22,032 nucleotides of DNA. Origin: a virus. The stretch spans positions 1 to 22,032 of the IMG/VR virus record IMGVR_UViG_3300049719_000025, one strand, 5' to 3'. Made by a program: the position numbers and the translations under genes. Shown in pieces: positions 1 through 21,255 of the stretch. Position 1 is the stretch's first letter; each line of letters opens with the position of its first letter. The notes below the pieces were generated by a model. It saw nothing but the letters and a program-made list of their open reading frames with translations. It did no database searches and was not told the origin of the DNA.

Positions 1-462
1 CATACCATTGTTCGGTGTAAACGCATTGTAAGTGATTTGATTTGCGGCGAGGAAGGAAACTCCTGTGCCACCCGTCTGCCCTGTATAGGCAGTACCACCC
101 ATAGCGGCGATAATTAAATCGTCTGTGGTGCGGCTCGCGGCGGCAATCTTCGCTTGCATCATCGTTGACTTAGGGTCAACAATCATCTGCAAGGCATCCT
201 TCGGGTCTTCCAAAGTGGCCGACACGAAGTAACGAGGGGAAACTGCCCTGCGCCTAAAGTCAGGCAACTGCACAGGGGTCGTGGCGTAACGGGTGACTAA
301 CTCCACCATCACGTCTTGATTATATTGGTCATAAAATTTGGTATTACCTACCCAGTTGGTATCAACACGGACGGCTCCGCGAAGGCGGGTGTCCATCTGT
401 TGAGCCAAAAGGTAAATCGTATTTGCGTACTCTTGGATTTGAACTACTGTTGGTGAACCCAT
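1..462 (-). CDS. Major capsid protein, N-terminal part (runs off left edge)
   Basis: The frame is open for 154 codons from the ATG at 462 to the window edge, so only the N-terminal part is present. The start has a good ribosome binding site (AAAAGGAG, 7 bases upstream). The protein begins MGSPTVVQIQEYANTIYLLA and continues with blocks such as LPDFRRRAVSPRYF, LEDPKDALQMIVDPKS and AAASRTTDDLIIAAMGGTAY. These are typical of the phage capsid protein family found just after the scaffold gene in podoviruses with a head-to-tail connector portal. It would assemble the icosahedral shell around the scaffold. The position, last in the visible leftward head operon and separated from it by a 134-base gap with its own promoter candidate, fits a highly expressed structural gene. 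The call rests on recognised sequence style plus context; the missing C-terminus prevents a length check. Confidence 0.85.
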   Translation of the reverse strand, partial: MGSPTVVQIQEYANTIYLLAQQMDTRLRGAVRVDTNWVGNTKFYDQYNQDVMVELVTRYATTPVQLPDFRRRAVSPRYFVSATLEDPKDALQMIVDPKSTMMQAKIAAASRTTDDLIIAAMGGTAYTGQTGGTGVSFLAANQITYNAFTPNNGM

Positions 463-550
463 TTTAGTCTCCTTTTAAAATTATCTTTTGGGCAGATAAT
501 CCGTGAAGGGTCTGCTAACTAAAATGGGGTCTCTTAGGTGAGATAATCCC

Positions 551-578
551 AATATGCCTTGAAGGAAGTTAAGGTCAA
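551..578 (-). promoter_or_regulatory. Possible promoter for the capsid gene
   Basis: On the minus strand TTGACC (573-578) is followed after 16 bases by CATATT (551-556), a partial sigma70-like pair. It lies in the 134-base gap between the 63-aa gene and the capsid start. The same gap holds two copies of AGATAATCC (494-502 and 541-549, plus-strand reading), which could be binding sites. An extra promoter for the capsid gene would make sense, but the -10 match is only 4 of 6. Confidence 0.3.
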
Positions 579-596
579 TTCCTATCGTTCAGGGTC

Positions 597-788
597 TTAC
601 GATTGTCCATCCCGATATTCCTTGAGAGTCTTAATTGTTTCCTTCCATAATTCTTTGCCAAGTGCTACTGGTGCGCTCCGCTCCATTTCTAAACGTGAAG
701 CGGTCTGTGCGAAGACTTCGGTGCATTTAATGAAAAGCTCACAAATATCAAAATCTGTCAACGTGCCAATATTCTTATCTTCCTTCAT
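597..788 (-). CDS. Small hypothetical protein between HNH and capsid genes
   Basis: A 63-aa acidic/amphipathic protein starting MKEDKNIGTLTDFDIC and ending KEYRDGQS. The frame is open further upstream to a TTG, but the ATG at 788 is preferred because GAGG lies 9 bases before it. It follows the HNH endonuclease gene by 18 bases and precedes the capsid gene. I do not recognise a family. Its place between scaffold and capsid (interrupted by the HNH gene) suggests a head-assembly or decoration accessory, but that is only context. No membrane segment, signal or metal-binding motif is visible. Confidence 0.6.
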   Translation of the reverse strand: MKEDKNIGTLTDFDICELFIKCTEVFAQTASRLEMERSAPVALGKELWKETIKTLKEYRDGQS

Positions 789-806
789 AAATTTATACCT
801 CAAAAT

Positions 807-1262
807 TTATACTGTCAACATATTTTTAAAATAATATCTTCTTGTTCTATTTTCATTCATCTCAATAAATCTACAATTATCAATCTCATAATCCTTATTG
901 CTATCAATTCTATCAATGGAAGGTTCTCTTAATAAACAGGCTTTATCTCTCTCCCATAAGTTTAACAAATCCTCTTTAGTAAGAAAAACTTTTATACCTC
1001 TTCCTCCATAAAATTTATATTTCTTATCATTTGGATTGCTACATCTATGATTTATGTTTCCCCATAATCTTTGCAATCTCCTGTTTCCATCAAACACATG
1101 AAGATGTCTAGATTTATCAAATATATCAAAACCTAGTCTATCCCATTCGCTTAAAGTTCCAGGAGAAATTTTAAGTCTCTTAGATAAATCCGACAATCTA
1201 CATCCGTACTTTTTTACGAATTTGCTTTTATATAAAACAAGACACGTCTTAATTCTACCCAA
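807..1262 (-). CDS. HNH homing-type endonuclease
   Basis: A 151-aa protein. Residues about 14-40 look like a helix-turn-helix (RLSDLSKRLKISPGTLSEW). Residues 68-140 carry the hallmark pattern of phage free-standing HNH endonucleases: RCSNPNDKKYKFYGGRGI, then SIDRIDSNKDYEIDNCRF and a trailing N/R-rich segment. Such enzymes nick or cut DNA at a site in phages lacking the gene and spread by repair. The start is TTG at 1262, supported by GGAGG 6 bases upstream; no ATG is available near the N-terminus. It overlaps the scaffold stop by 8 bases. The gene is visibly more AT-rich than the scaffold and capsid genes around it, consistent with a recent mobile arrival. Whether it is active cannot be seen. 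Confidence 0.85.
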   Translation of the reverse strand: MGRIKTCLVLYKSKFVKKYGCRLSDLSKRLKISPGTLSEWDRLGFDIFDKSRHLHVFDGNRRLQRLWGNINHRCSNPNDKKYKFYGGRGIKVFLTKEDLLNLWERDKACLLREPSIDRIDSNKDYEIDNCRFIEMNENRTRRYYFKNMLTV

Positions 1263-2061
1263 ACGCGACCTCCGTTAGTTCGTGATACTTCTTCACAGTC
1301 GCAACATGGTCTTTATGTTTCTCGTCATTAAACGCGTGGGTCTTTCCTGTCTTAACAATATCGCTCATCAACTCGTCGAGGGCTTTCTTCGCCCCCTCTT
1401 TGGTTTTTGTATCAGCACTTGTACTTGTGTTCGCCCCTAACTTCCCAATGCTGTCCTCTGACAATAAGGAAGTAAGTTTGTGAATAGCCTTTAACTTTAC
1501 GGGGTCGCCGGAAATTTCTTTCCCGAAATCATCAAGTCCAAGACGCTTAAAAACATTCTCAATGTTCGCCTTGTTAGTATCATACTTGTCTGCCCATTCA
1601 TTACGAAGGGCGGTCTCAACTTCTTTGGCCTTATCCGCACGGGCTTTATCTGCCTGAACCATTCCGTTGTGTAGACCAAGAAGAATCTCTTGCTGTAGCT
1701 TGTCTGCACGGTCATTATCAATATCCAATGCGTGAAGGCGGGTAGCCAAAAACTTCTGCGTACCTTCTGCTGATAGCCCTGCATGAAGGTCTTTAAGGGC
1801 GGTAAACTTATACTCTTCCGGTTTCGCAGGGGCGTGTTTAATAGTGCCGACAAGTTTCTTTGTCTCAATAAAACTTTTTGCTAAGTCGTTGACGTTTTTA
1901 AAAGTGGATAGAGCTGGGTCTTTCCTCGCTTCTTCTCCCACCAAGCTAATGTCTCCACTTGCCGCTCTTGCGTTTAATTCAGTGTATGCCTTTGCTAAAT
2001 CATTTGGTGTGGCAAAATCTTTTGTCGACTCTGCGTATGTGGCTTCAATTCCTTCAATCAT
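1255..2061 (-). CDS. Putative scaffold protein
   Basis: A 268-aa, Lys/Ala/Glu-rich, largely helical protein with no membrane segment. It contains the phrase APAKPEEYKF followed by helical segments (LSAEGTQKFLATRLHALDID, a Lys/Ala/Asp-rich stretch, KKALDELMSDIVKTGK). This layout, with P-E-x-Y-x-F before long helices and a charged C-terminus, is typical of phage scaffold proteins encoded immediately before the capsid gene. It would form an internal core for procapsid assembly and then leave. The ATG at 2061 is chosen over an upstream GTG because GGAGG sits 5 bases before it, and it forms an ATGA overlap with the 84-aa gene upstream. The HNH gene begins inside its last codons. The alternative is another internal head protein. 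Confidence 0.65.
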   Translation of the reverse strand: MIEGIEATYAESTKDFATPNDLAKAYTELNARAASGDISLVGEEARKDPALSTFKNVNDLAKSFIETKKLVGTIKHAPAKPEEYKFTALKDLHAGLSAEGTQKFLATRLHALDIDNDRADKLQQEILLGLHNGMVQADKARADKAKEVETALRNEWADKYDTNKANIENVFKRLGLDDFGKEISGDPVKLKAIHKLTSLLSEDSIGKLGANTSTSADTKTKEGAKKALDELMSDIVKTGKTHAFNDEKHKDHVATVKKYHELTEVAFG

Positions 2062-2312
2062 TTTGCCTCCCACGGTTGTAATGTAGTCCTATCAACTTTC
2101 TTTCCCGTCTTAGCATCAATCACCCAGGGCGATTTTTTCATCACCCGTTGAAAATTGTTTTTAAGAACAGTCGTCCTCATGGGGCTTGGGTCAGTATCAC
2201 AAATTCCCTCTAACCTTTGAATGTCCGGCCCGTTCCTTCTCACCGCAAGAACCCTCAACTGCTGTCCGTCCTTCGTTAGAATAATGTCATTTACTTCAAC
2301 TGAATTGTCCAT
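2058..2312 (-). CDS. Small hypothetical virion-operon protein
   Basis: An 84-aa protein beginning MDNSVEVNDIILTKDGQQLRV, with alternating hydrophobic residues and a basic tail (KSPWVIDAKTGKKVDRTTLQ). The beginning looks like a small beta-rich (SH3-like or hub-like) fold: a V-x-x-x-D-I-I-L-T-K-D-G-Q turn, then strands. No family is recognised. AGGAG lies 7 bases before the ATG. Its start is inside the end of the Bbp19-like gene (17-base overlap) and its stop overlaps the scaffold start, so it is translationally coupled within the head operon. Confidence 0.65.
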   Translation of the reverse strand: MDNSVEVNDIILTKDGQQLRVLAVRRNGPDIQRLEGICDTDPSPMRTTVLKNNFQRVMKKSPWVIDAKTGKKVDRTTLQPWEAK

Positions 2313-2526
2313 TAGGGTTCTCCTCTGGTTCTGGTACTGGGTTTATCATATTATTAATGTGCTTTATAACATTCTCCGAGCCAACCTCGGTTAAGTCTTT
2401 CACGGGGGAATAGAAAAAGAATCTCCTTTTTAAATCTTCCAATACCAATTTAGCATCAGAGGTTTCAAACACTCGCTGGTACAGCAGTTCCAACTCTCCC
2501 CGATTCATCTTTAGGACTTGATTCAT
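2296..2526 (-). CDS. Bbp19-like phage protein
   Basis: A 76-aa protein with the pattern LYQRVFETSDAKLVLEDLKR, then about 15 residues, then GSENVIKHINNMI. This is the layout of the small Bbp19-like family (VFxTxxGxxVLxDL...G....V...I), named from Bordetella phage BPP-1 and common in podoviruses with the same portal type. Its function is not established. The first ATG (2526) is preferred over the second Met because AAGGTG lies just upstream. Its first 62 bases overlap the end of the 244-aa gene in another frame, which is a long overlap even for this packed operon. Confidence 0.6.
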   Translation of the reverse strand: MNQVLKMNRGELELLYQRVFETSDAKLVLEDLKRRFFFYSPVKDLTEVGSENVIKHINNMINPVPEPEENPNGQFS

Positions 2527-3199
2527 CTTTCACCTTTGGTTTTAATTCATGCGTTGATTCCTTCAAACAACTCATACACTTCCCGTGATACTTCCCGTCA
2601 TCTTCCTTAACGGCCACCATAAGCATAAAACAATGAGGACAAAGGAATGTACTTTCAAATTTCCCAATGACTTTCGCCGGAGCGGGCTTCCGCTTCTGAT
2701 AGAACTCCATCTCACTCGGAGCGGCGAATATCCTTCGAGGGGTTTCAGACTTATCATCAATAATATCAAAGCCGTCAATAATCTGTTTGACCTTACCGTC
2801 AATAGTCAATCGTGGGCCGTGAACTTTAAGCACACGGTAAATATTCCCTACCACAATATCAATAGGAGCGTCCTTCGCCCGTGGTTCAACCTTAATGCAC
2901 CGGACTAAATCCTCTCGTCCTATTTGATTATCCTCAACAGAGGGAACGGCGACGGAGGAAGAAAGGGAGACCTCCGCCGCCGGAGTCGCTACGGAAACAA
3001 GGGGAACCGTAGCTAATGGTACTACAATCTTTTCATCAGTAACATTCTTTACAGAATCATAAAGGTCTGAAATCTTCCTATTAGCTTCATAAGGAAATTG
3101 AACCTTCTTTCCACTATCAAGAGTTACATGAATAATAATCATGTGGGCTTGTCCGTCTGTATGAAGAAAAGCGTCAGACTCGCCAAGCGTAATAATCAT
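2465..3199 (-). CDS. Hypothetical protein with C-terminal zinc ribbon
   Basis: A 244-aa protein. Residues 20-60 hold short strands with a KKVQFPYEANRKISDLYDSV segment; a Val/Ser/Ala-rich linker follows (about 60-92). A middle domain (VRCIKVEP..., IVVGNIYRVLKVHGPRLTID) looks like a small beta domain. Near the C-terminus CPHC and CMSC, about 21 residues apart, form a probable four-cysteine zinc ribbon, followed by a charged, Ser-rich tail. Good ribosome binding site (AGGGGG, 8 bases from ATG). The start overlaps the stop of the 57-aa gene (ATGA). No family recognised; the position between portal and scaffold genes suggests a virion or morphogenesis role. Confidence 0.7.
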   Translation of the reverse strand: MIITLGESDAFLHTDGQAHMIIIHVTLDSGKKVQFPYEANRKISDLYDSVKNVTDEKIVVPLATVPLVSVATPAAEVSLSSSVAVPSVEDNQIGREDLVRCIKVEPRAKDAPIDIVVGNIYRVLKVHGPRLTIDGKVKQIIDGFDIIDDKSETPRRIFAAPSEMEFYQKRKPAPAKVIGKFESTFLCPHCFMLMVAVKEDDGKYHGKCMSCLKESTHELKPKVKDESSPKDESGRVGTAVPASV

Positions 3200-3369
3200 A
3201 TATAATCCCCCTTTGAGTCCGCCAATTTATTCGCCTCTTGATACATCTTAGAATATTTATTTTTAGGAATTATCGTGTGGCGATAAAGTGGAATGGGTTT
3301 TTTAACGTCCTTACCCTCTCGATCAAGTGTTCTTAGGAATCCTTTAGTTTGTTTAATTATGTGAGACAT
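3196..3369 (-). CDS. Small basic hypothetical protein (57 aa)
   Basis: A 57-aa Lys/Arg-rich protein, MSHIIKQTKGFLRTLDREGK at the start and KMYQEANKLADSKGDYI at the end. The start overlaps the end of the 163-aa gene by 17 bases, and its stop TGA overlaps the next ATG (ATGA), so it fits the coupled operon perfectly and fills an otherwise empty 153-base gap. GGAG lies about 13 bases upstream of the ATG, which is somewhat far. No family recognised. Confidence 0.65.
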   Translation of the reverse strand: MSHIIKQTKGFLRTLDREGKDVKKPIPLYRHTIIPKNKYSKMYQEANKLADSKGDYI

Positions 3370-3844
3370 AATCGTCAGGGTTCTCCTTCTTGGCTTGTTC
3401 TAAATTCGCTTGTCCCTTCGCATAGTCCGTCGGTATCTCTGGAAACCAAAACTTACAGTGAATAGATTTCCGATAATCAATATTGTGAATACGAAGCGTG
3501 TCCTTATGATAATCCCAAAGCCCTTCTTCGTTATCGACAAGGGTCTTACACATCATGCCAACTTGATACTCCAATTCATCTATTACGTTTCCTTTTTGTC
3601 CAGTGGGATTGACGTCGCTCTCGGTAGGCCCATACTTATCTTTACGAAGTCTTTTTTGGAAGGTTATAATTTTATTCCATTTGAGGATTTCTGATTCTAT
3701 ATCCTTGCGGAATCCAAGAGGGCATTTGAACTCATCGAAAGTCCAACGCCATATCGCCCTCCAAAGAAGTGCTATGGGCATTACCTTGTCCGGCGAAGCG
3801 TCGGAAAAAAGCATTTCATTTGGAGTTTTGTTTTTATGAGACAT
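3353..3844 (-). CDS. Hypothetical head-module protein (163 aa)
   Basis: A 163-aa soluble protein, Trp- and Lys-rich (LLWRAIWRWTFDEFKCP near residues 26-42), with a charged C-terminal helix (QANLEQAKKENPDD). It starts 2 bases after the portal stop with no clear ribosome binding site, so translation is probably coupled to the portal. No catalytic or metal motifs are evident. Position directly after the portal suggests a connector or head-completion accessory, by context only. Confidence 0.65.
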   Translation of the reverse strand: MSHKNKTPNEMLFSDASPDKVMPIALLWRAIWRWTFDEFKCPLGFRKDIESEILKWNKIITFQKRLRKDKYGPTESDVNPTGQKGNVIDELEYQVGMMCKTLVDNEEGLWDYHKDTLRIHNIDYRKSIHCKFWFPEIPTDYAKGQANLEQAKKENPDDYVSHN

Positions 3845-3846
3845 AA

Positions 3847-5493
3847 CTATTGTTTCATTGCCGCTTGGCCTTCACTAACGTCTTTGTGCGCTCCGGCCAG
3901 ATTCTTGCCAATCTTAGATTTCTCCTCGGCAATTTTAAGTTGCATCATCTGCTGTTGCATCTGCTGATCAGCCTGTCGTCTCTTATCCATATCCGCTTGC
4001 TCGGCGACGTTATCAGGATTAACCCCAAAAAGGTCAGCAGAGCTTCTGCCAATCTTGTCAATGTTAAGAATATATTTAGCGTCGGAGAATCCACCTTCGA
4101 TAAGGCCGGTGATGTATGTCGTCCAAGCATTGAGGCCGTTCATTTCTGCCGACCTTTGGGCCTTAGCTAATGGCGAGAGATACACAATACTCATATCCAA
4201 ATTGCGAAGTTCTTTCGGAGCCGGAGGAAACATCAACTGTCTCTCAAGAATCGCTCTCGTCCTAAAAAGAATCGGAGTAATCCCCTCATCGAGAACGTGA
4301 CCGATATACGGAGAAATAAGGTTGAGGGCTTCTGCAAGTCTTTGTTGAACCTCTGGTATCGTCATCTGCTTCGTGACGTTCATAAGGTTCTCAAAGAGAT
4401 TGACAAAAAGCCCCGCGTCTATAAGGTCTTGTTCGAGCTTCATAACATCGGCGGTGATAGGAATGTTCCCTTTATTTTCCATCTGTGCGAATTGCTCAAG
4501 TTTAAACTTGCTCGCGTCATAATAATTCATAGCGGAAGGGTTGAGGTTTAGCGGGGCAATCCAAAATTTATATGGTGAAGCATACGCAGGGTCGGATTGT
4601 TTCATAGAGACACGAATAAGAGTCCTCTTTTGGGCATTGGCCAGCTTAATCGAACCAAGAACATTCATGGTCGGACTATAAGCATAAGGACTCCCATCCA
4701 TGGTGTCTTTCCACCAACGGGCAGTAGCATAGGGGTCTTCAACGAATCCGCTCTCTTCAAATAAAAACTCATCATCAATGCCAATCCAAACGGAAAAATA
4801 TTCCATATTGGAATTATCCATCATTGCCACGTTACGCATATACCGAGGGGCAACGTAATGGAGTAAATCAAATTCTTTGTAATAATCCCCGTCCTTTAAA
4901 GCGGTCTTAATGGAATCGGGCAATCTATTGCCCCACCTCTCCATACATTGAACGGCGGTAAAACGAAAAGGTCTGTAGGTCTCGTTGACATAACCTTCGT
5001 CGTCCTCGACGAGAACGGCGGACTCAATAGGTATTGGTGTGTAGCGAACCTTCTTCTTGGCACTTGATTCTGTGAGTATCGTGGAAACTCCGCCGACAAG
5101 AAGATTAGGGTAGAACTCCATCATGCTACGATTGAAGTTAGAACCATTCATTACATCATACTGAATATCATCACATTCTCTAAAATATTTTTGCGCTCGT
5201 CCTGTTTGCATATACTTATCTTCAATCAATCCTGATTGCCACCAACGGGTTGATGGGTTTGTAAGGTTAGAATGGAAACCTGCGGATGATTTCATTACGG
5301 CGAGAGTCGCACGTGAGTCATATAGGAAATTAAGATTTAATTCCTGTGCTTCTTTTTTTATCGTAGAAATCCATGCCTTACGAGGTAATGCAAAATTAAA
5401 AACATCTTGCCAGTAGGACTCCCACGTTCCCCGTTTTCCCTTATGCCATTTAAAATTCCCTATAGCCTTCTTTACAAATTCTTGATTTACCAT
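3847..5493 (-). CDS. Head-to-tail connector (portal) protein
   Basis: A 548-aa protein close to the usual 500-560 aa of the podovirus head-to-tail connecting protein family (T7 gp8 / BPP-1 type). Recognisable blocks: WESYWQDVFNFALPR near residues 23-37, LYDSRATLAVMKSSAGFHSN with the following TNPSTRWW (about 57-84), YFRECDDIQYDVMNGSNF (about 103-120) and a PPAPKEL..DMSIVYLSPLAKAQR segment late in the protein. The C-terminal 60 residues are Gln/Met/Lys-rich and probably helical (QQMQQQMMQLKIAEEKSK). Twelve copies would form the ring at the capsid vertex through which DNA is packaged and ejected. Ribosome binding site GAGAGG, 8 bases upstream of the ATG. It lies downstream of the terminase, as expected. 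Confidence 0.93.
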   Translation of the reverse strand: MVNQEFVKKAIGNFKWHKGKRGTWESYWQDVFNFALPRKAWISTIKKEAQELNLNFLYDSRATLAVMKSSAGFHSNLTNPSTRWWQSGLIEDKYMQTGRAQKYFRECDDIQYDVMNGSNFNRSMMEFYPNLLVGGVSTILTESSAKKKVRYTPIPIESAVLVEDDEGYVNETYRPFRFTAVQCMERWGNRLPDSIKTALKDGDYYKEFDLLHYVAPRYMRNVAMMDNSNMEYFSVWIGIDDEFLFEESGFVEDPYATARWWKDTMDGSPYAYSPTMNVLGSIKLANAQKRTLIRVSMKQSDPAYASPYKFWIAPLNLNPSAMNYYDASKFKLEQFAQMENKGNIPITADVMKLEQDLIDAGLFVNLFENLMNVTKQMTIPEVQQRLAEALNLISPYIGHVLDEGITPILFRTRAILERQLMFPPAPKELRNLDMSIVYLSPLAKAQRSAEMNGLNAWTTYITGLIEGGFSDAKYILNIDKIGRSSADLFGVNPDNVAEQADMDKRRQADQQMQQQMMQLKIAEEKSKIGKNLAGAHKDVSEGQAAMKQ

Positions 5494-5494
5494 A

Positions 5495-5677
5495 TCAACG
5501 GCCTCTCTGTGCGACTCTCATCGCTCTGGATGAAGCTCTATTCGCTACCGTTAAATTATGTGCATATTCAGGCGGTACGGCTGGCCCGTGCGCCGCGTGA
5601 ACGCCGGTTGTTTTGTTTTTAGTGGAAACCCTGAACTGCGCCTTCGCGTGAGATTTACCAGAAATATGAGATTTCAT
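5495..5677 (-). CDS. Small basic hypothetical protein (60 aa)
   Basis: A 60-aa Arg/Ala/His-rich protein, MKSHISGKSHAKAQFRVSTK at the start and RASSRAMRVAQRGR at the end. It has an ATGA overlap with the preceding gene and a GGGGAG just before the ATG (short spacing). It ends 1 base before the portal ATG. Strongly basic composition suggests nucleic-acid contact or a structural peptide, but no family is recognised. Confidence 0.55.
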   Translation of the reverse strand: MKSHISGKSHAKAQFRVSTKNKTTGVHAAHGPAVPPEYAHNLTVANRASSRAMRVAQRGR

Positions 5678-6096
5678 GAACTCCCCACTAATGAGACTGA
5701 ACTTATATCGCTTCCTAATATAATCCCCGAACCACCCGTTACGTTTGTCCCACCACCTGCGGCAAGGACTGACCGCCTCTGCGCTGTCTGTGCTTCCGTG
5801 GCGGTTTGTTGGGCGGTTGTAGAGCTTGGAGCGGTTGCTTGGGCGGGTTGTCCTGATTGAGAAGAGCTTGTCATTGATACAATCCCTTCTGCTAATCCTG
5901 CAACTCCTCCTACAATAGCTGTACCTGCGGCAATAGACATTCCTGCTGTAACCCCCGCACCAGTAACGCCAGCGGCGGCTCCTACTGCACCAAGACCTGC
6001 ACCCACCGCTCCAACAATATCAGAAACTACTGCGGCAATAGCAGAAAAAAATCCTTTGTTATTAAGAAAAAATTTCCAATTTACTTTGCGTTTCAT
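5674..6096 (-). CDS. Ala/Gly-rich hydrophobic protein, possible internal virion/ejection protein
   Basis: A 140-aa protein. After a basic N-terminus (MKRKVNWKFFLNNKG), residues 17-75 are almost entirely Ala, Gly, Val and Ile with GxxxG-like spacing (VGAVGAGLGAVGAAAG), able to insert in or pack against membranes. Residues 78-105 are a low-complexity Ser/Thr/Gln/Ala stretch, and the C-terminus is Gly/Ser-rich (LAAGGGTNVTGGSGIILG). Small proteins of this composition just upstream of the portal are common in podoviruses and are suspected internal virion or DNA-ejection proteins; that role is an inference. The start overlaps the GNAT gene stop (ATGA). AAAGG lies 8 bases upstream. Confidence 0.6.
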   Translation of the reverse strand: MKRKVNWKFFLNNKGFFSAIAAVVSDIVGAVGAGLGAVGAAAGVTGAGVTAGMSIAAGTAIVGGVAGLAEGIVSMTSSSQSGQPAQATAPSSTTAQQTATEAQTAQRRSVLAAGGGTNVTGGSGIILGSDISSVSLVGSS

Positions 6097-6545
6097 CTGT
6101 CGAGCCTTTTTGTTAGGTTCATTTCTTGACGGTCATACCCCATCCGCAACAATATTTTACTCCAATCGTGGTCAAACTTAACATGATGACTAACAACTTG
6201 AACTCCTAATTTTCTCAACTCATCATCACAAAATTTAATAAGCCTTGTCCCTATCGTGCCTCTTCGATATTCTTGAGCAACATAAATAATATCTTCCGTC
6301 GCTACTAAAGATTGTTTATAATGAAGATTACCTTTAACAAAGAACACGGCGTAGCCAATAAGTTTGTTGCTGTCATCCCGAGCCGTATACACTCTCGTAA
6401 GACCCGCCTTCTCTACCTTCAAGTACGCTTCATAGTCAACATCTAATAAAATATCTTTATAAAATGCAATCTCTTGTCTATGAATTTCAAAGAGCGGCTT
6501 CATTTCCTCAAGTGCGTCAGATAATTTTTCTTCTTTAAAAATCAT
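6093..6545 (-). CDS. GNAT-fold N-acetyltransferase-like protein
   Basis: A 150-aa protein with the GNAT layout. Strands with KLIGYAVFFVKGNLHYK lead to IIYVAQEYRRGTIGTRLIKF, which holds the acetyl-CoA pyrophosphate loop (Q/R-x-x-G-x-G/A, here RRGTIG) followed by the long helix, and a closing LLRMGYDRQEMNLTKRL segment. GNAT-like proteins occur in the head modules of many podoviruses, and T7 gp13 belongs to a related fold family. It may therefore be a virion-assembly factor rather than a metabolic enzyme. The start overlaps the 75-aa gene by 11 bases; no strong ribosome binding site is seen, so coupling is likely. Confidence 0.8.
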   Translation of the reverse strand: MIFKEEKLSDALEEMKPLFEIHRQEIAFYKDILLDVDYEAYLKVEKAGLTRVYTARDDSNKLIGYAVFFVKGNLHYKQSLVATEDIIYVAQEYRRGTIGTRLIKFCDDELRKLGVQVVSHHVKFDHDWSKILLRMGYDRQEMNLTKRLDR

Positions 6546-6762
6546 ACTTCCGTGGATTCTTATACTTCTTTTTCATCGTCCCAATCATAGAGGCGATGGT
6601 AGTGTTTATATTGCCTATTCCATGAACGTGATAATTCCCCAATGTCGCCGTAACCCTAATCACACCCTTCTTCTTATCCTCCGTAATCACATACGTCATT
6701 TTCTTTCGTATGGTAGATAAGTAATCAATCAACTCCCCGATAGTCGGTCTGTCCAACTTCAT
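6535..6762 (-). CDS. Small hypothetical protein (75 aa)
   Basis: A 75-aa basic protein starting MKLDRPTIGELIDYLSTIRK, followed by strands (TYVITEDKKKGVIRVTATLG) and a Lys-rich end. It overlaps the 86-aa gene by ATGA and the GNAT gene by 11 bases. No known family or motif is seen. Confidence 0.65.
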   Translation of the reverse strand: MKLDRPTIGELIDYLSTIRKKMTYVITEDKKKGVIRVTATLGNYHVHGIGNINTTIASMIGTMKKKYKNPRKYDF

Positions 6763-7019
6763 TTCTTTATAATCCTATCACCAAACCTGTTAATCGCCTT
6801 CTGTTCCTTAAACCAATTCGCCAACTGTGCCTTCGCGGAATCCATCATTGCCATAATGAACGCCTCGTTGCGTAAGTCCTTCATCAGATGGCTCTGCACG
6901 TCCTGAATGATATTTCCTTTTGCGTCCTTATATTGTATTATGGAAAGTATGACAAAATCTTTTGGTGGGTTAAGGGGGTCAATGTGTTGAGCTGTTTGTA
7001 GTTTTCCATTATCGCCCAT
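6759..7019 (-). CDS. Small hypothetical protein next to terminase (86 aa)
   Basis: An 86-aa soluble protein with a first beta-rich half (PPKDFVILSIIQYKDAKGNI) and a helical second half (EAFIMAMMDSAKAQLANWFK). It starts 2 bases after the terminase stop; the GGGGG in the last terminase codons lies 7 bases before its ATG. No family recognised. Confidence 0.65.
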   Translation of the reverse strand: MGDNGKLQTAQHIDPLNPPKDFVILSIIQYKDAKGNIIQDVQSHLMKDLRNEAFIMAMMDSAKAQLANWFKEQKAINRFGDRIIKK

Positions 7020-7021
7020 AA

Positions 7022-8365
7022 TTAAACCCCCATGTCTGTTATAGCGTAGGATTGAAACTTCTTTTTACTCGGCGTTACACCTGGAACTATAATATCGTCA
7101 ACTTCAAAAACCCTATCTTCGTCCGCATAATACAACGCAAGTACAGTTGAGTCAACTTTATTCGGAGATTTTATTCCCTTACTCCGCATCTCTTCCTTAC
7201 TCACAATATACTTCTTTGACTCCCCTCTGTAATAAAAACGCACGGTCATAAACTCCTCTTGCAATTTTACGTCGGGTAATATCTCAAGCCAGTCTTTAGA
7301 AATATACTCTTCAAGTTTAAAAATCCCTTCTGCCTTCTTATTAGGGTAAGGACTTTCCCCATTAGGTTTTTCATTTGCGATAAATCCATAGGTCGTAAAA
7401 CTGTTTGAGTCCCCCAGGTAATCGCAGACACCGCCACCCACCCCTATATCATCAACCCCGATTGTATCGAAAGGAAATTGCTTCCACATATCCTTAACCC
7501 ACCCGACCACCTCCGGCGCACCAGCCCCAAACTTCTCCTCCTGAAACACCATCTTCCACTTCCGAATCCCAACCAAAGCAAGTATGGTAAGGCAGGTACT
7601 ATCCGCACCATACCGCCCCACATCAAGCCCCGCCGCATACTGACAGAACTTAGGAAGCACATACCCCAACTGTGAAGATCGTATCAAGTCCCTACTGTGA
7701 AACACATTATCATCACTCAACTCCTCATCAAAACTATTCATCACCATTCGCGCGAAGTGGCGGGGGGAATCCTTCTCGCGAGCCTTCTGGTCATCAATAA
7801 ATTTCTGCGGTAGGTTAATAGCATTATCGAAAGTCGTTGCGGTAATAACGTGGAAATCATCGGACGAAGGATTGTTTATCCACATCCGCCAGCACCAGTT
7901 CCGGCCATTAGCGTTGCTGATTAAGGCAATCTGTTGGTATGGTCCTGCCTTCCCGCGCATACGGTCACGAAGGAAGTTAAACTGCATATCGTTCTCAAAC
8001 TCTTCCGCCTGTTCAATTCCGCACCAGTCCAAGTTAATGTTTTTAAGAACCTCGATTTCCGAACCGTGCCGGAACATAATTCTCGACCCATTCTCAAACC
8101 GCACTTCCTTATGAGTGTCTACTGTCAACCCAAAGTATTTAGTGAAGTCGGCCAGCGTCGAGTCATGCAGGTCAGTAAAGGTCTTGCGGACTATCATGCA
8201 GACAGCCCCCGGATAAGCCTGCGCGAACTGGACGCATTTCAGTAATAGGCAATAAGTTTTGCCTGTACCGATGCCGGCAATCATGTGAGGGAATCTTTTG
8301 GTAGAGGTAACAAATTCAGCTTGCTGTGGTATCAGAGTAATGCTTATTACTTTTTTTTCGTCCAT
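7022..8365 (-). CDS. terL: Large terminase subunit (DNA-packaging ATPase/nuclease)
   Basis: A 447-aa protein, normal length for a phage large terminase. Residues 13-24 (PQQAEFVTSTKR) form the adenine/Q-motif region, GIGTGKT (31-37) is the Walker A loop, and WCGIEQAEEF (114-123) is the Walker B/catalytic Glu region. The nuclease domain has GLDVGRYGADST (246-257), IGVDDIGVGGG (302-312) and a late DSTVLALYYADED, giving the acidic triad. It pumps DNA into the procapsid through the portal and cuts it. The ATG at 8365 is chosen because the conserved part starts about 12 residues later; the frame is open to a TTG at 8392, inside the HNH gene. The ribosome binding site is poor, and the first 50 bases overlap the 3' end of the HNH gene. 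Confidence 0.95.
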   Translation of the reverse strand: MDEKKVISITLIPQQAEFVTSTKRFPHMIAGIGTGKTYCLLLKCVQFAQAYPGAVCMIVRKTFTDLHDSTLADFTKYFGLTVDTHKEVRFENGSRIMFRHGSEIEVLKNINLDWCGIEQAEEFENDMQFNFLRDRMRGKAGPYQQIALISNANGRNWCWRMWINNPSSDDFHVITATTFDNAINLPQKFIDDQKAREKDSPRHFARMVMNSFDEELSDDNVFHSRDLIRSSQLGYVLPKFCQYAAGLDVGRYGADSTCLTILALVGIRKWKMVFQEEKFGAGAPEVVGWVKDMWKQFPFDTIGVDDIGVGGGVCDYLGDSNSFTTYGFIANEKPNGESPYPNKKAEGIFKLEEYISKDWLEILPDVKLQEEFMTVRFYYRGESKKYIVSKEEMRSKGIKSPNKVDSTVLALYYADEDRVFEVDDIIVPGVTPSKKKFQSYAITDMGV

Positions 8366-9026
8366 AATTATCCGTATGTTTATGACAATCAATACAAAGC
8401 GTTTCTCCGTTATCTAAATCAAAGAATGGATGATATATAATTGCAATCCTAAGAAGAACCTCTTTATCCTCTATTGGAGAGAACTGATTGAATGTATTGA
8501 TGAAATTATGAAACAGAATCGAGAAGGATTGTTTGTGGTGTGCTTCTAAATTTCCGCCTACTGAATCGCCACAGTTGACACAGGCGTAATTATCCCTTTT
8601 AAAAATCTCGTCCCTCCATTTAAACATCTCTGGAAGACGACGAACCATTTGGTATAAATCTAATCTACCCCCCTGCCACGCAGGAGTTTTCTCTCTTCGT
8701 AATGTTTTAAGATACTCTGCACGACAGTCCCTATTACAAAAAATTCTATTATTCCTCTGCTCACTTGCCCGTATAAACTGATTAACCTGAATCTCTTTTT
8801 CTTTGTTACAGAAAAAACAATTAACGATAACCCGTTTTCGTGCCTTTATATTTAACCGACCCGTCCAATACTTGCTTAATTTCTCCCTGCAGTCTTTACT
8901 TATAACGGGGTCAGCTTTCCCCTTATTCATACAGACCTTTGAACAATATTTCCCTCTACCATCCTTAACCCTCGATGGATATTCAAGAATTACTTTCCCA
9001 CAAATTAAACAATCCTTTTTTATCAT
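8316..9026 (-). CDS. Zinc-finger HNH endonuclease in the terminase locus
   Basis: A 236-aa protein. Two treble-clef-like zinc fingers come first: C6-x2-C9 with C28-x3-C32, and C70-x2-C73 with C97-x3-C101. A spacer containing TPAWQGGR follows, then an HNH nuclease domain: YACVNCG (C149, C152), LEAHH (H163, H164) and NGETLCIDCHKHTD (N206, C211, C214, H215). All expected metal and catalytic positions are present, so it may be active. It starts as ATGA on the upstream gene stop and its last 50 bases overlap the terL start. It could be a free-standing homing endonuclease, or a packaging-associated HNH protein, as HNH genes beside terminases are known to act in packaging (HK97 gp74). The homing type seems more likely from the N-terminal fingers. 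Confidence 0.85.
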   Translation of the reverse strand: MIKKDCLICGKVILEYPSRVKDGRGKYCSKVCMNKGKADPVISKDCREKLSKYWTGRLNIKARKRVIVNCFFCNKEKEIQVNQFIRASEQRNNRIFCNRDCRAEYLKTLRREKTPAWQGGRLDLYQMVRRLPEMFKWRDEIFKRDNYACVNCGDSVGGNLEAHHKQSFSILFHNFINTFNQFSPIEDKEVLLRIAIIYHPFFDLDNGETLCIDCHKHTDNYGRKKSNKHYSDTTAS

Positions 9027-9421
9027 TTAAACGAAAACCCCGGCGGTAAATGAATGTTTATCTGCGGACACTTCTGTGCTCCTACCTCCGCCCTCCTCGC
9101 CCCCAACATATCAACCGCCACCGCCACAAACTTCGCCCGCTCACTATTCGCCGGACATATCGGATCCCCAGTCTCCGCATTGCACACCATTGCCATCAAC
9201 CCCTTCGCCACCGTCTCACAAAGCTGTTCATACGTCAGCCCCGCCTTCTTCCTTATCTCCGCCCGCTCCGCCTCCTCATCCTTCAAAGTCGTATTGTTTT
9301 TAGCGATAGCAACTTCCGGGTGAAATACATTATCCGGTATCAAAGCAGTCTTTAGGGTAGGTAAAACAGAAACTTCTTTTACTGCGGAACTAACAATCCT
9401 TTTTGGCTTATAACGACCCAT
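9023..9421 (-). CDS. Candidate small terminase subunit
   Basis: A 132-aa protein, first gene of the leftward operon. A basic N-terminus (MGRYKPKRIV) leads to a charged helical segment (LKDEEAERAEIRKKAGLTYE) and a helix pair (LCETVAKGLMAMV ... SERAKFVAVAVDMLGARRAE). It ends with a proline-rich tail (INIHLPPGFSFK). Position immediately before terL (apart from the HNH gene) and size match small terminases, which recognise the packaging site and regulate the motor. The sequence itself is not diagnostic, so this rests mainly on context. No good ribosome binding site precedes the ATG, possibly because transcription starts very close to it. Confidence 0.55.
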   Translation of the reverse strand: MGRYKPKRIVSSAVKEVSVLPTLKTALIPDNVFHPEVAIAKNNTTLKDEEAERAEIRKKAGLTYEQLCETVAKGLMAMVCNAETGDPICPANSERAKFVAVAVDMLGARRAEVGAQKCPQINIHLPPGFSFK

Positions 9422-11261: not shown

Positions 11262-11504
11262 ATGACAAGCGAAATGCCGTATAACAGAAATGAAATGACA
11301 GAGAAAGAAGAAAAATGTTTTGAGGGGATAATGGCTTTTTGGTATTGGTTTGTCCTGCTGGCAATCTTATGCACAGCTTTTTACGTTTTGATAGTGCCAG
11401 GGTTAGCTCACGCGGCCAGGGTTCCGACCTATGGACATGATACTTGTGATACAAGCTGCACGCCGACTTATGGGGGCGGGTTTAATTGCAGTACAACCTG
11501 TTAA
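11262..11504 (+). CDS. Membrane-anchored or secreted Cys-rich small protein (80 aa)
   Basis: An 80-aa protein. Residues 1-22 are polar (MTSEMPYNRNEMTEKEEKCF), residues 24-47 are a strong membrane segment (MAFWYWFVLLAILCTAFYVL), and residues 48-52 read GLAHA, an AxA signal-peptidase-like site. The last 28 residues hold four cysteines in two CxxxC pairs (CDTSC and CSTTC) with Gly, Thr and Tyr. So the tail may be exported and disulfide-bonded, or remain anchored. Ribosome binding site AAGGAG, 7 bases upstream. A role in lysis, superinfection exclusion or envelope change is possible but not shown. Confidence 0.6.
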   Translation: MTSEMPYNRNEMTEKEEKCFEGIMAFWYWFVLLAILCTAFYVLIVPGLAHAARVPTYGHDTCDTSCTPTYGGGFNCSTTC

Positions 11505-11521
11505 AATATCACAAATAAATA

Positions 11522-11548
11522 TTGACAACAATAGTACCAAGGTATAAT
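11522..11548 (+). promoter_or_regulatory. Strong promoter candidate upstream of the VirE gene
   Basis: TTGACA (11522-11527) and TATAAT (11543-11548) are both perfect matches but only 15 bases apart; TAATAT two bases on would give 17. They sit inside a 7-base inverted repeat, ATTGACA (11521-11527) and TGTCAAT (11550-11556), which would suit a repressor operator covering the promoter. Confidence 0.6.
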
Positions 11549-11598
11549 ATGTCAATATGCTAAGAGTTAAAAGAACAACGATTAAAGAATGTAATATT

Positions 11599-11632
11599 GC
11601 CCGACGGGAATTATCCTTGTCGGGCTTTTTTT
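11599..11632 (+). terminator. Intrinsic terminator 1
   Basis: GCCCGAC (11599-11605) pairs with GTCGGGC (11619-11625). The stem continues as GGGA/TCCT around an ATTA loop with one bulged T, and is followed by seven T. This is a textbook intrinsic terminator. Confidence 0.85.
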
Positions 11633-11695
11633 GTGCCCGCCCCAACTCTTAGCAGAGCGTTACGCGTTGTTTGTAACACGGGGCGGCACTTTTTT
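11633..11695 (+). terminator. Intrinsic terminator 2 with large loop
   Basis: GTGCCCGCCCC (11633-11643) pairs with GGGGCGGCAC (11680-11689) with one bulged C, followed by six T. The 36-base loop contains a GTTAC/GTAAC hairpin. Its 5' arm starts directly after the T run of terminator 1. Efficiency is uncertain because of the large loop. Confidence 0.55.
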
Positions 11696-11708
11696 ATTTT
11701 AGGTTACT

Positions 11709-12971
11709 ATGGCAGACACGGTACAAAAAACTTCCGCAAAACAAGAACCAATTTTAGTGCAGATTGTAAAACAATTTGAAGGCACAGAAGATTTAATAAA
11801 TTTAATTGCCTTTAATGAAACTTACCAAAATATCCAATTTCTTAAAGACTGGAATAAATGCAGGAAAGATACTTACCTTGAAGATGAACATGAGTCCTTT
11901 CTCTTATATTATCTAACACAGAAACTAAATAAAAATGTTAATAAGGGTCAATTAGGCGATGCTATTACAGAAATTGCCCACAGAAAGATTATAAGACCTG
12001 TCAGAGATTACTTAGATACTCTTAAATGGGACGGAACACCACGATTAGGGACATGGCTATATACTTACGCGGGAGCAAATCAAAACGAATATACTGGACA
12101 GGCAGGTAAGATAGTGTTGACTGCGGCAGTTGCAAGGATTTACGAACCCGGCGTTAAATTTGATTATTTACTCATACTGGAAGGGCCACAGAGAACGGGT
12201 AAAAGCACATTAGTAAAAGCCATTGGAGGAAAATGGTATTTAGACATGGCCCTAAAGGACAGCGACAAGGAAATTATAGACGAATTGCGCGGATGTTGGA
12301 TTGTAGAAATGGGGGAGTTAGCTGGTTTTAATAAAAAAGATATTGATTGGTTAAAATCATTCTTGAGTCGTCAGGTTGATCGTTGCAGGCTTTCTTATGG
12401 TCGCAGAAGCAAAGACTTTTCAAGACAAGTTGTCTTTATAGGAACAATGAATCCTTCAGGAGACAACACATATTTTAGAGACGATACCGGTAATCTTCGT
12501 TTTTGGCCTGTTTTATGTAGGGATATAAATATTCCAAGATTTATATTAGACCGAGATCAATTATTTGCAGAAGCGAAAGCCATATATTTTAATTTAAAAA
12601 AACAAAAAGATGATGGAATTCTTACAGGAGACTATCCATTTTACCTCCAAGACAAAGCCTTTAAAATTGCTGAGGAAGAGCAAAAACAAAGAGAAATTAT
12701 AGACCCGTGGGAAATGGATGTTTTAAGGATTATTACAGGAAAGCCAGAAGTAACTACAATGCAAGTATTATCTGATATTGGAGTTCCGGTTTCTCAACGG
12801 GGACAATACGAATTGACAAGAATTGGTAAAATTCTTAAAAAGTTTAAATGGCATAAAAAACAGTTAGCAGACGGAACAAGAATATATACAAGAAATGAAG
12901 AAGTTAAACATCAAGGAAGATATGCAAAACAAGAGGAGGTTGCATGGAGCGAGGAAATCATAAAGACTTAG
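11709..12971 (+). CDS. VirE-family ATPase (virulence-associated E; phage helicase/initiator)
   Basis: A 420-aa protein. Residues 92-120 (RPVRDYLDTLKWDGTPRLGT) and 138-148 are the conserved entry to VirE-family ATPase domains. GPQRTGKST (159-167) is the Walker A loop, GCWIVEMGEL (195-204) the Walker B, GTMNPSGD..Y..D.TGNLRFWPV (245-268) the sensor and arginine-finger region. Residues 347-395 look like a winged helix (VTTMQVLSDIGVPVSQRGQY). Related proteins act as replicative helicase or primase-helicase and, in satellites such as SaPIs, as origin-binding initiators. No primase domain precedes it here, so it is a helicase-type member. It follows the double-terminator leader, and the ribosome binding site is weak (AGG), suggesting tight control. 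Confidence 0.9.
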   Translation: MADTVQKTSAKQEPILVQIVKQFEGTEDLINLIAFNETYQNIQFLKDWNKCRKDTYLEDEHESFLLYYLTQKLNKNVNKGQLGDAITEIAHRKIIRPVRDYLDTLKWDGTPRLGTWLYTYAGANQNEYTGQAGKIVLTAAVARIYEPGVKFDYLLILEGPQRTGKSTLVKAIGGKWYLDMALKDSDKEIIDELRGCWIVEMGELAGFNKKDIDWLKSFLSRQVDRCRLSYGRRSKDFSRQVVFIGTMNPSGDNTYFRDDTGNLRFWPVLCRDINIPRFILDRDQLFAEAKAIYFNLKKQKDDGILTGDYPFYLQDKAFKIAEEEQKQREIIDPWEMDVLRIITGKPEVTTMQVLSDIGVPVSQRGQYELTRIGKILKKFKWHKKQLADGTRIYTRNEEVKHQGRYAKQEEVAWSEEIIKT

Positions 12972-20209: not shown

Positions 20210-20473
20210 ATGAAACACAATATAAAAATAGAACAACATTATTTAATCCACATTGTCGAAGGTATAAAGACATTTGAAGTTCGCAAGAATGATAGAGATT
20301 ATCAAGTGGGCGACACCATTTATTTTATGCCTATTGAAAGTAAAGGTGGCTATGACGCTTACAAGTCAGGATATTCAACGCATTTTAAAATTACTTATGT
20401 TCACCATTGTTTCGGTATGCAAGAAGGATACGTTGTGTTAGGCATTATGCCATCTGAATCATTTAAAGATTAA
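20210..20473 (+). CDS. DUF3850/ASCH-like protein (87 aa)
   Basis: An 87-aa protein with the DUF3850 layout: MKHNIKIEQHYLIHIVEGIK, then TFEVRKNDRDYQVGDTIYFM and a closing YVVLGIM. This is a small PUA-like ASCH fold, related to RNA-binding domains. The K-x-F-E-V/I-R-K-N-D-R motif is intact. It may bind RNA or a modified nucleotide; the phage target is unknown. Leader type A. Confidence 0.85.
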   Translation: MKHNIKIEQHYLIHIVEGIKTFEVRKNDRDYQVGDTIYFMPIESKGGYDAYKSGYSTHFKITYVHHCFGMQEGYVVLGIMPSESFKD

Positions 20474-20495
20474 CCGGCATTGTTAAAGGAGGGAT

Positions 20496-21107
20496 ATGGA
20501 CATCCTTAAATTTTGTGGAGAATATGAAAAATTAAACTTACCTTTTACAGTAGGCCAAGATGTCTATGTATCTGATGGTCGAATGGCTATCAAACTTCAA
20601 AGCGTAGATTTGTCCTTAAAATACAGGGACAATAAATATCCCGAAGCCACCCAAAAGATTGATGAATTTTTTACTAAAGCCGTTAAAGATACTCCCGTTG
20701 ATTTTAGATTTGAAAATTATCGGGATGAGTATATAGAGTGTTCAATTTGTCATGGATTGGGTAAGCTCACAAAGTGCGGTGAATGTAATGGGAAAGGCAT
20801 CGTTGAATGTTGCGAATGTGGTCAAGACAGGGATTGTCCTGATTGTGATGGTACGGGGAATAGAAGCAAAATTGACGCTGATAATTTTCAATGCGGAGAA
20901 TGTGCTGGCGTGGGAAAGGTTTTAAAACAACAAGAAACAATTTTAACTGATAAGTTAAAAGTTCAATCAAAATATTTATGCAGGATATTCTCAGAATTAA
21001 AGAACGTTAGATTGTACGCCGAGCATGACACGTCATTTAGTAAATTCGGATTTATATATTTTACTTTTGAAAACGGTCAAGGGATATTATTACCATTAAG
21101 TCATTAA
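20496..21107 (+). CDS. DnaJ-type zinc-finger protein with flanking domains (203 aa)
   Basis: A 203-aa protein. The N-terminal 75 residues contain FTVGQDVYVSDGRMAIKLQS, then a Cys-rich centre (about 76-150): CSICHGLG, CGECNGKG, a CCECGQDRDCPDCDGTG block and CGECAGVG, i.e. four CXXCXGXG-like motifs as in the DnaJ zinc domain, and a C-terminal domain (LCRIFSELKNVRL ... FIYFTFENGQGILLPL). The flanking parts look like one domain split by the zinc insert; the DGRM and GILLP phrases recall common phage proteins of unknown function. There is no J domain. Leader type A. Confidence 0.7.
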   Translation: MDILKFCGEYEKLNLPFTVGQDVYVSDGRMAIKLQSVDLSLKYRDNKYPEATQKIDEFFTKAVKDTPVDFRFENYRDEYIECSICHGLGKLTKCGECNGKGIVECCECGQDRDCPDCDGTGNRSKIDADNFQCGECAGVGKVLKQQETILTDKLKVQSKYLCRIFSELKNVRLYAEHDTSFSKFGFIYFTFENGQGILLPLSH

Positions 21108-21129
21108 ACGGCATTGTTAAAGGAGGGAT

Positions 21130-21255
21130 ATGAAAACCAAAGATTTAGTAATAGAAATTTTAATTAATATCATTTGCGTCTGTATTGTTATAGACGCACT
21201 TTTTAACATAATCTTTTTTATAAATTATACAGTAAAACACATAAGACTAATTTAA
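21130..21255 (+). CDS. 41-aa membrane peptide, copy 2
   Basis: A 41-aa peptide starting MKTKDLVIEILINIICVCIV with one membrane segment and the same basic end as copy 1 at 20063. Only residues 2, 4, 15 and 24 differ. Most base differences are silent, so the protein has been kept after duplication. The duplication unit may include the leader, and the two copies are separated by the DUF3850 and zinc genes. Leader type A. Confidence 0.65.
   Translation: MKTKDLVIEILINIICVCIVIDALFNIIFFINYTVKHIRLI

Follow-up and report, generated by a model that had tools for sequence, protein, structure and literature searches.

The closest described counterparts of the element reported here are the SeqA-CI system of P4, the c4 system of P1 and P7, and the IsrK/STnc1160 RNA of Salmonella Gifsy-1. 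In P4, according to published work summarised in PMC10111431 and PMC4825925, pairing of CI with seqA leads to termination, and translation of eta prevents it. The P4 leader contains GTGAGAA and TTCACAGG, complementary to CI (8 and 7 nt), followed by GACGCGCCACGCGTC-T7 and then by CI; an ORF crossing the terminator has its ribosome-binding position covered by the TTCACAGG target. In P1, the promoter is followed by a1, b1, the terminator and c4, and a1 and b1 flank the ATG of an ORF that crosses the terminator. The c4 RNA of P1/P7 (Rfam RF01695 and RF03163) controls icd/ant (antirepressor), not a helicase, and possesses a second set of targets. In Gifsy-1, a small RNA is terminated, the read-through mRNA goes on into a structured RNA, and the system acts on its own operon (PMC4825925); orf45/anrP is controlled.

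The same layout is found at positions 11519-11708 (plus strand) of the window, i.e., the whole 22-kb stretch of DNA analysed (22,032 nucleotides). A promoter is followed by a leader with two segments (a and b), an intrinsic terminator (T1) and a predicted Y-shaped RNA (Y) carrying the complements a' and b'. Like in P4, a gene for a P4-family helicase (alpha in P4) lies downstream, and an ORF crossing the terminator overlaps the target with its start. Like in P1/P7, the terminator separates the target segments from an RNA of the three-way-junction type. Like in Gifsy-1, a terminated small RNA would come first and a structured RNA upon read-through, although the predicted RNAs of the window are unrelated to IsrK in sequence. 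Since P4 CI, P1 c4 and Salmonella IsrK use this layout, it is not unprecedented. In the literature, no report was found of a C4/CI-type layout with VapE or with these phages. The element is probably a miniature C4/CI-type antisense-RNA attenuator, located before a replication helicase.

Genomic setting and relatives

The window is a fragment of a tailed-phage genome (virus record G000). It contains terminase and head-tail connector/portal genes, so the replicon is that of a tailed phage and not of a plasmid. The structural block (1-9421) reads leftward, and the early block reads rightward from ~10385. On its 5' side, the element is flanked by a small ORF (11262-11504) that has a membrane-like segment, and on its 3' side by the presumed regulated gene (11709-12971, plus strand). 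This gene, initially labelled a VirE initiator (a putative role), encodes a VapE-like helicase domain (PF05272, 6.7e-66; PHROG DNA helicase, 3.5e-89) and no primase domain. No similarity to the window DNA was found among 50,697 phage records, and a search with the helicase in 84,980 bacterial and archaeal genomes gave relatives only at ≤33% identity. An ARAGORN tRNA-Asn (anticodon ATT) at 3084-3166 on the minus strand is located within a predicted coding frame (2465-3199, minus strand) and is probably a false positive.

Seven relatives with the same layout were collected: L024 and six further, unrelated sequences (L005, L030, L031, L033, L035 and L036). L024, part of the 42-kb contig 3300050026_000207, was the one true relative obtained from an exact-pattern search of IMG/VR for the complementarity; a further match, L025, is a chance match in which no stems were seen. 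Close relatives were gathered through a portal search. The portal of L005 is 93% identical to that of the window, and its element has a different sequence and the same order of parts. Helicase searches gave L030, L031, L033 and L035; in L034, L037 and L038, the sequence directly upstream of the helicase does not hold the element. Throughout the eight members, TTGACA is followed by a 16-17 bp spacer, a leader of 41-57 nt and T1 with its U-tract; a second stem, 7-18 nt past T1, encloses 31-42 nt, and the next start codon lies 8-22 nt past the end of Y.

The layout was first recognised by eye and later formalised as a descriptor, which alone provided L036. Without the promoter, the descriptor matched only members among the loci collected at that stage, and nothing in 5.1 Mb of shuffled DNA. 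A relaxed version recovers the P1 c4 module through the a1 and b1 matches, and P4 is not listed. Its extra matches are the L042-L045 group, L052, L095, L173 and one in P1. The L042 group is made up of repeats. The L173 match (Marinobacter phage PS3, 4135 (+)) lies past a VapE-type gene and combines a T1-like hairpin with a 9-bp stem and a leader-loop complementarity of 11 nt; a further module of this kind may be present there.

Just upstream of the promoter, L030, L031, L033, L035 and L036 encode a protein of ~50-64 aa that is ribbon-helix-helix-like by eye; a Pfam search with these proteins gave no match. Different small proteins are encoded just 5' of the promoter in the window, L005 and L024. 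The combination of a regulatory RNA with a small protein upstream, in those five relatives, resembles the copy control of pMV158 by CopG and RNAII. RNAII of pMV158 is transcribed from the opposite strand, whereas the window has both pairing partners on one strand. In L036, the RNA element is separated from the helicase gene by an HNH-like gene (by eye; 2459-2946) that looks like an insertion.

The contigs of five relatives (33-43 kb, possibly incomplete) yielded no integrase, HTH_3 repressor, ParA, ParB or resolvase; hence, lysogeny or a plasmid state is unsupported. The phages carrying the element are perhaps virulent, or perhaps do not integrate, and this is why an immunity-type RNA is of interest in them.

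In the window, a ~29-nt sequence (TTTAACGGCATTGTTAAAGGAGGGATATG and variants) recurs about ten times between 18782 and 21938, directly 5' of small early genes. Most copies take in the ribosome-binding site and the start codon, and the repeat is perhaps a common start signal or a cassette boundary. A 666-bp cassette bounded by this repeat (20470-21135) is 99.85% identical to L024 313-978, while other stretches common to the window and L024 are mostly 67-92% identical. This suggests a recent exchange between phages at the ~29-nt repeats.

Promoter, leader and terminator

The promoter, TTGACA-N17-TAATAT (11522-11550, plus strand), has the same hexamers and spacing in L024, in which the spacer, upstream of the stretch shared with the window, has a different sequence. 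Both boxes had been annotated as perfect. This is correct for the -35 (TTGACA, 11522-11527); a perfect TATAAT does exist at 11543-11548, but it is merely 15 bp from the -35 and overlaps the conserved -10, which is TAATAT (11545-11550) at 17 bp, likewise in L024. An inverted repeat surrounds the promoter, ATATTGACA-N22-TGTCAATAT (11519-11558), and is a possible operator; its arms (11519-11527 and 11550-11558) are 9 bp long and not 7, as was initially noted. Among the relatives, L005 alone has one, different in sequence (8 bp), and the rest have none of at least 7 bp. Because it is missing in most relatives, the repeat was dropped from the conserved device as lineage-specific. A promoter-like site on the minus strand (11555-11528) arises from this same repeat.

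The predicted transcript start is at about A11557, directly 3' of the promoter. The DNA identity between the window, L024 and L007 starts exactly at 11557 (92% over 11557-11717). T1, GCCCGACGGGAATTATCCTTGTCGGGC-T7 at 11599-11632 (plus strand), is built of a hairpin (11599-11625) and a T7 tract, as originally described, and is the sole terminator-like site between 10.5 and 13 kb of the window. A GC hairpin with a U-tract occupies this position in 8/8 members. As T1 is strong and conserved, an RNA of ~76 nt is expected: the predicted SeqA/IsrK-like leader RNA would begin at the inferred start and finish with the U-tract of T1 (11557-11632, plus strand). An antiterminator pairing of the leader with the arms of T1 was sought by eye, and nothing consistent was found.

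Segment a (TGCTAAGAGTT) is located at 11558-11568 and segment b (AACAACG) at 11574-11580, both on the plus strand; no other site for segment a was found in the window, with up to one mismatch allowed. A possible leaderless ORF of 31 codons (11557-11652, plus strand) starts at the inferred start site, overlaps a, crosses T1 and ends in a'. An ATG ORF adjoins a in all eight members, with its stop at, in or past T1 (5 nt short of it in L005). In the window, L024, L005, L030 and L036, the ATG is situated 7-8 nt past the -10, where the transcript is expected to begin. In L031, L033 and L035, a takes the ribosome-binding position 5' of the ATG. The protein sequence of the product is unconserved among the members. 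Against shuffled leaders, the placement of the ORF at a has a joint P of ~9e-5, in a post hoc test. The element shares with SeqA, IsrK and c4-a1b1 both the promoter-proximal leader ending in an intrinsic terminator 5' of the Y-RNA and, as judged post hoc, the target overlapping the start of a terminator-crossing ORF.

The predicted Y-shaped RNA and its complementarity to the leader

Past T1, a GC-rich closing stem (11633-11643/11680-11689) encloses a' and a hairpin, B (11659-11677), together giving the predicted Y-shaped, C4/CI-like RNA (11633-11689; all on the plus strand). Segment a' (AACTCTTAGCA, 11644-11654, plus strand) lies in the loop of the GC-rich stem, and b' (CGTTGTT, 11665-11671, plus strand) lies in the loop of hairpin B. 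The Y is followed by a U-rich translation start region (11690-11708, plus strand) with a weak AGG (11701-11703), in agreement with the weak ribosome binding site annotated before the helicase gene.

A three-way junction, composed of the long GC closing stem and two hairpins, is the minimum-energy fold in six of the eight members (L024, L005, L030, L031, L035 and L036). The two exceptions are the window, where the minimum-energy fold differs inside the closing stem and is not a three-way junction, and L033, with just one inner hairpin; the near-identical L024 shows the junction clearly. Y is more stable than its shuffles in all members (z of -2.3 to -6.0), and the whole 158-nt RNA of the window has a z of -3.5, with 0/200 shuffles equally stable. 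The P1 c4 and P4 CI RNAs fold into the same three-way junction. The second stem had initially been considered a second terminator. However, L024 keeps it as a perfect 11-bp stem, then GATTATTTT, with no proper U-tract, and the relatives fold into the three-way junction. According to these predicted folds, the stem more likely belongs to a three-way-junction RNA of the kind seen in P1 C4 and P4 CI.

Segments a and a' are 100% complementary over 11 nt. The complementarity of 10 bases described in the first-pass annotation is real and does reach into the loop of the second stem, with a length of 11 nt. Compared with dinucleotide shuffles of the leader, this match has a P of 0.0004. The shorter pair b:b' accompanies it, and a second leader:loop pair of at least 7 nt is present in the window, L024, L005 and L031. 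The longest exact a:a' matches in the eight members are 11, 11, 9, 7, 7, 8, 6 and 9 nt, so that, as in C4/CI, a loop complementary to the upstream leader occurs in every one. At least seven pairing-sequence types exist among the eight phages: the pairing, whose conservation in relatives had been proposed as a check, is kept in all seven by wholly different sequence. Over six independent types, the longest match has a Fisher P of 1.5e-6, with the leader and loop boundaries drawn by eye on sequences already seen; at single loci, the pairing is non-significant in L030 (P 0.09), L031 (P 0.12) and L035 (P 0.23). When seven leaders were crossed with seven loops, the cognate assignment ranked first among 5040 permutations in match length as well as in duplex energy, with a mean match of 8.1 nt for cognate combinations vs. 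4.9 nt off the diagonal.

That the two stems are ordinary tandem terminators insulating the operon, with an accidental complementarity, is hardly credible. In the window and L036, the second stem does run into T6, but these are the only members in which the U-tract is clear; L024, L031 and L035 lack it, and for this reason, tandem terminators were rejected as a full explanation. The cognate pairing in all members and the absence of the layout from shuffled sequence speak against them as well.

A rather unlikely alternative is that a and a' of a single molecule form an H-type pseudoknot with the closing stem, serving as an attenuator or translation element with no diffusible RNA. Both pairing partners are located on one transcript, and in the window, a' is directly 3' of the 5' arm of the closing stem, which is favorable for coaxial stacking. 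In L030, L031, L033 and L035, on the contrary, a' lies 5-9 nt inside the stem, within or close to the loop of a closed hairpin, a position that better fits a kissing contact. Moreover, the conserved strong terminator between a and a' would free a as a separate RNA.

The similarity with the described systems is one of architecture. The Y of the family is 45-58 nt long and begins 7-18 nt past T1, compared with ~70-80 nt and ~100 nt in P4. Segment a' is 5' of hairpin B or in hairpin A, whereas in P4, it is 3' of hairpin B; in the window and L005, the order is a,b / a',b' as opposed to a,b / b',a' in P1 and P4. No second target like the a2/b2 of P1 or the seqC of P4 was found: within 300 nt downstream of Y, there is no excess of complementarity, except for an 8-mer in L024 (P = 0.03). 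There is no sequence similarity with P4 either. The Rfam C4 model (RF01695) gave no match up to E = 10 in the window or the seven relatives, with P1 c4 (68.8 bits) and P4 CI (74.9 bits) as positive controls, and neither isrK (RF01394) nor c4-a1b1 (RF03163) matched the window or the relatives, with P1 and P4 found as controls. Rfam as a whole, at curated thresholds and at E up to 10, gave sub-threshold matches only.

Possible mode of action and module mobility

The proposal of a riboregulator or attenuator with a small RNA of ~75 nt before the replication gene is well supported, as seven relatives retain the layout and the pairing but not the sequence. The layout, the conserved pairing, the position of the ORF and the match with P1/P4 architecture are direct observations. 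As a putative mechanism, transcription would start at ~11557, and most transcripts would end at T1, yielding the 76-nt RNA. A ribosome on the short ORF at or next to a would stop T1 from forming, and the RNA polymerase would then read into Y and the helicase gene. Y-RNA from these read-through transcripts would build up and pair with a on new leaders, blocking leader translation; T1 termination would be restored, and helicase expression kept low. Because the Y-RNA would accumulate from read-through and restore termination, helicase output should fall as the copy number rises (copy control), and another infecting genome that shares the pairing type would be kept in check (immunity). We infer the processing and diffusion of the Y-RNA, the repression, and the copy control or immunity from the arrangement of the parts.

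The circuit could also work in the opposite sense, like IsrK, which we regard as possible though doubtful: the T1-ended leader RNA would be the active small RNA, bind Y in the read-through mRNA via a:a' and alter helicase translation. An action of this kind, on its own read-through mRNA, is described for Salmonella IsrK (PMC4825925). T1 is both conserved and strong, and the end of Y is only 8-22 nt 5' of the start codon. However, the folds reveal no visible sequestering of the helicase start site by Y, and the consistent presence of a at the start of the leader ORF is not needed by such a circuit. The C4/CI-type attenuator is the preferred reading.

The element precedes a D5/DUF5906 helicase in all seven relatives; behind the element of L024, for example, the gene encodes a D5_N/DUF5906 helicase, not VapE. 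The block of 92% identity between the window and L024 runs from the inferred transcription start to codon 3, and the genes behind it differ. These boundaries indicate that the module moves as a unit. The position directly 5' of a helicase without a primase domain would also suit a replication primer or origin RNA, with a structure like ColE1 RNA II and no role as a gene regulator. This is very unlikely: the site shows no origin-like repeats, the helicases that accompany the module are of two different types, and the strong T1 and the partner loops look like those of known regulators.

On sequence grounds, the element is a real, conserved RNA device and, in design, a sequence-divergent, miniaturised relative of the RNA immunity modules of P4 and P1. 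More speculatively, phages without a detectable integrase, partition genes or a classical repressor might use a pared-down, sequence-free C4/CI-type RNA circuit as a swappable cassette before any replication helicase, the pairing type acting as an RNA-only identity that limits the copy number and keeps out co-infecting phages that share it. The known C4, CI and IsrK RNAs are recognised through sequence-dependent models, and the family described here shares their architecture with essentially no common sequence; such modules have thus probably been overlooked in many phages. If the proposed mechanism is true, the element would represent a minimal P4 immunity (leader ORF, terminator and Y-RNA in <200 nt) that exists in many pairing specificities and sits immediately 5' of a replication helicase. 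RNA-based superinfection control would then be directly testable in these phages, and the parts would be simple enough for orthogonal gene control.
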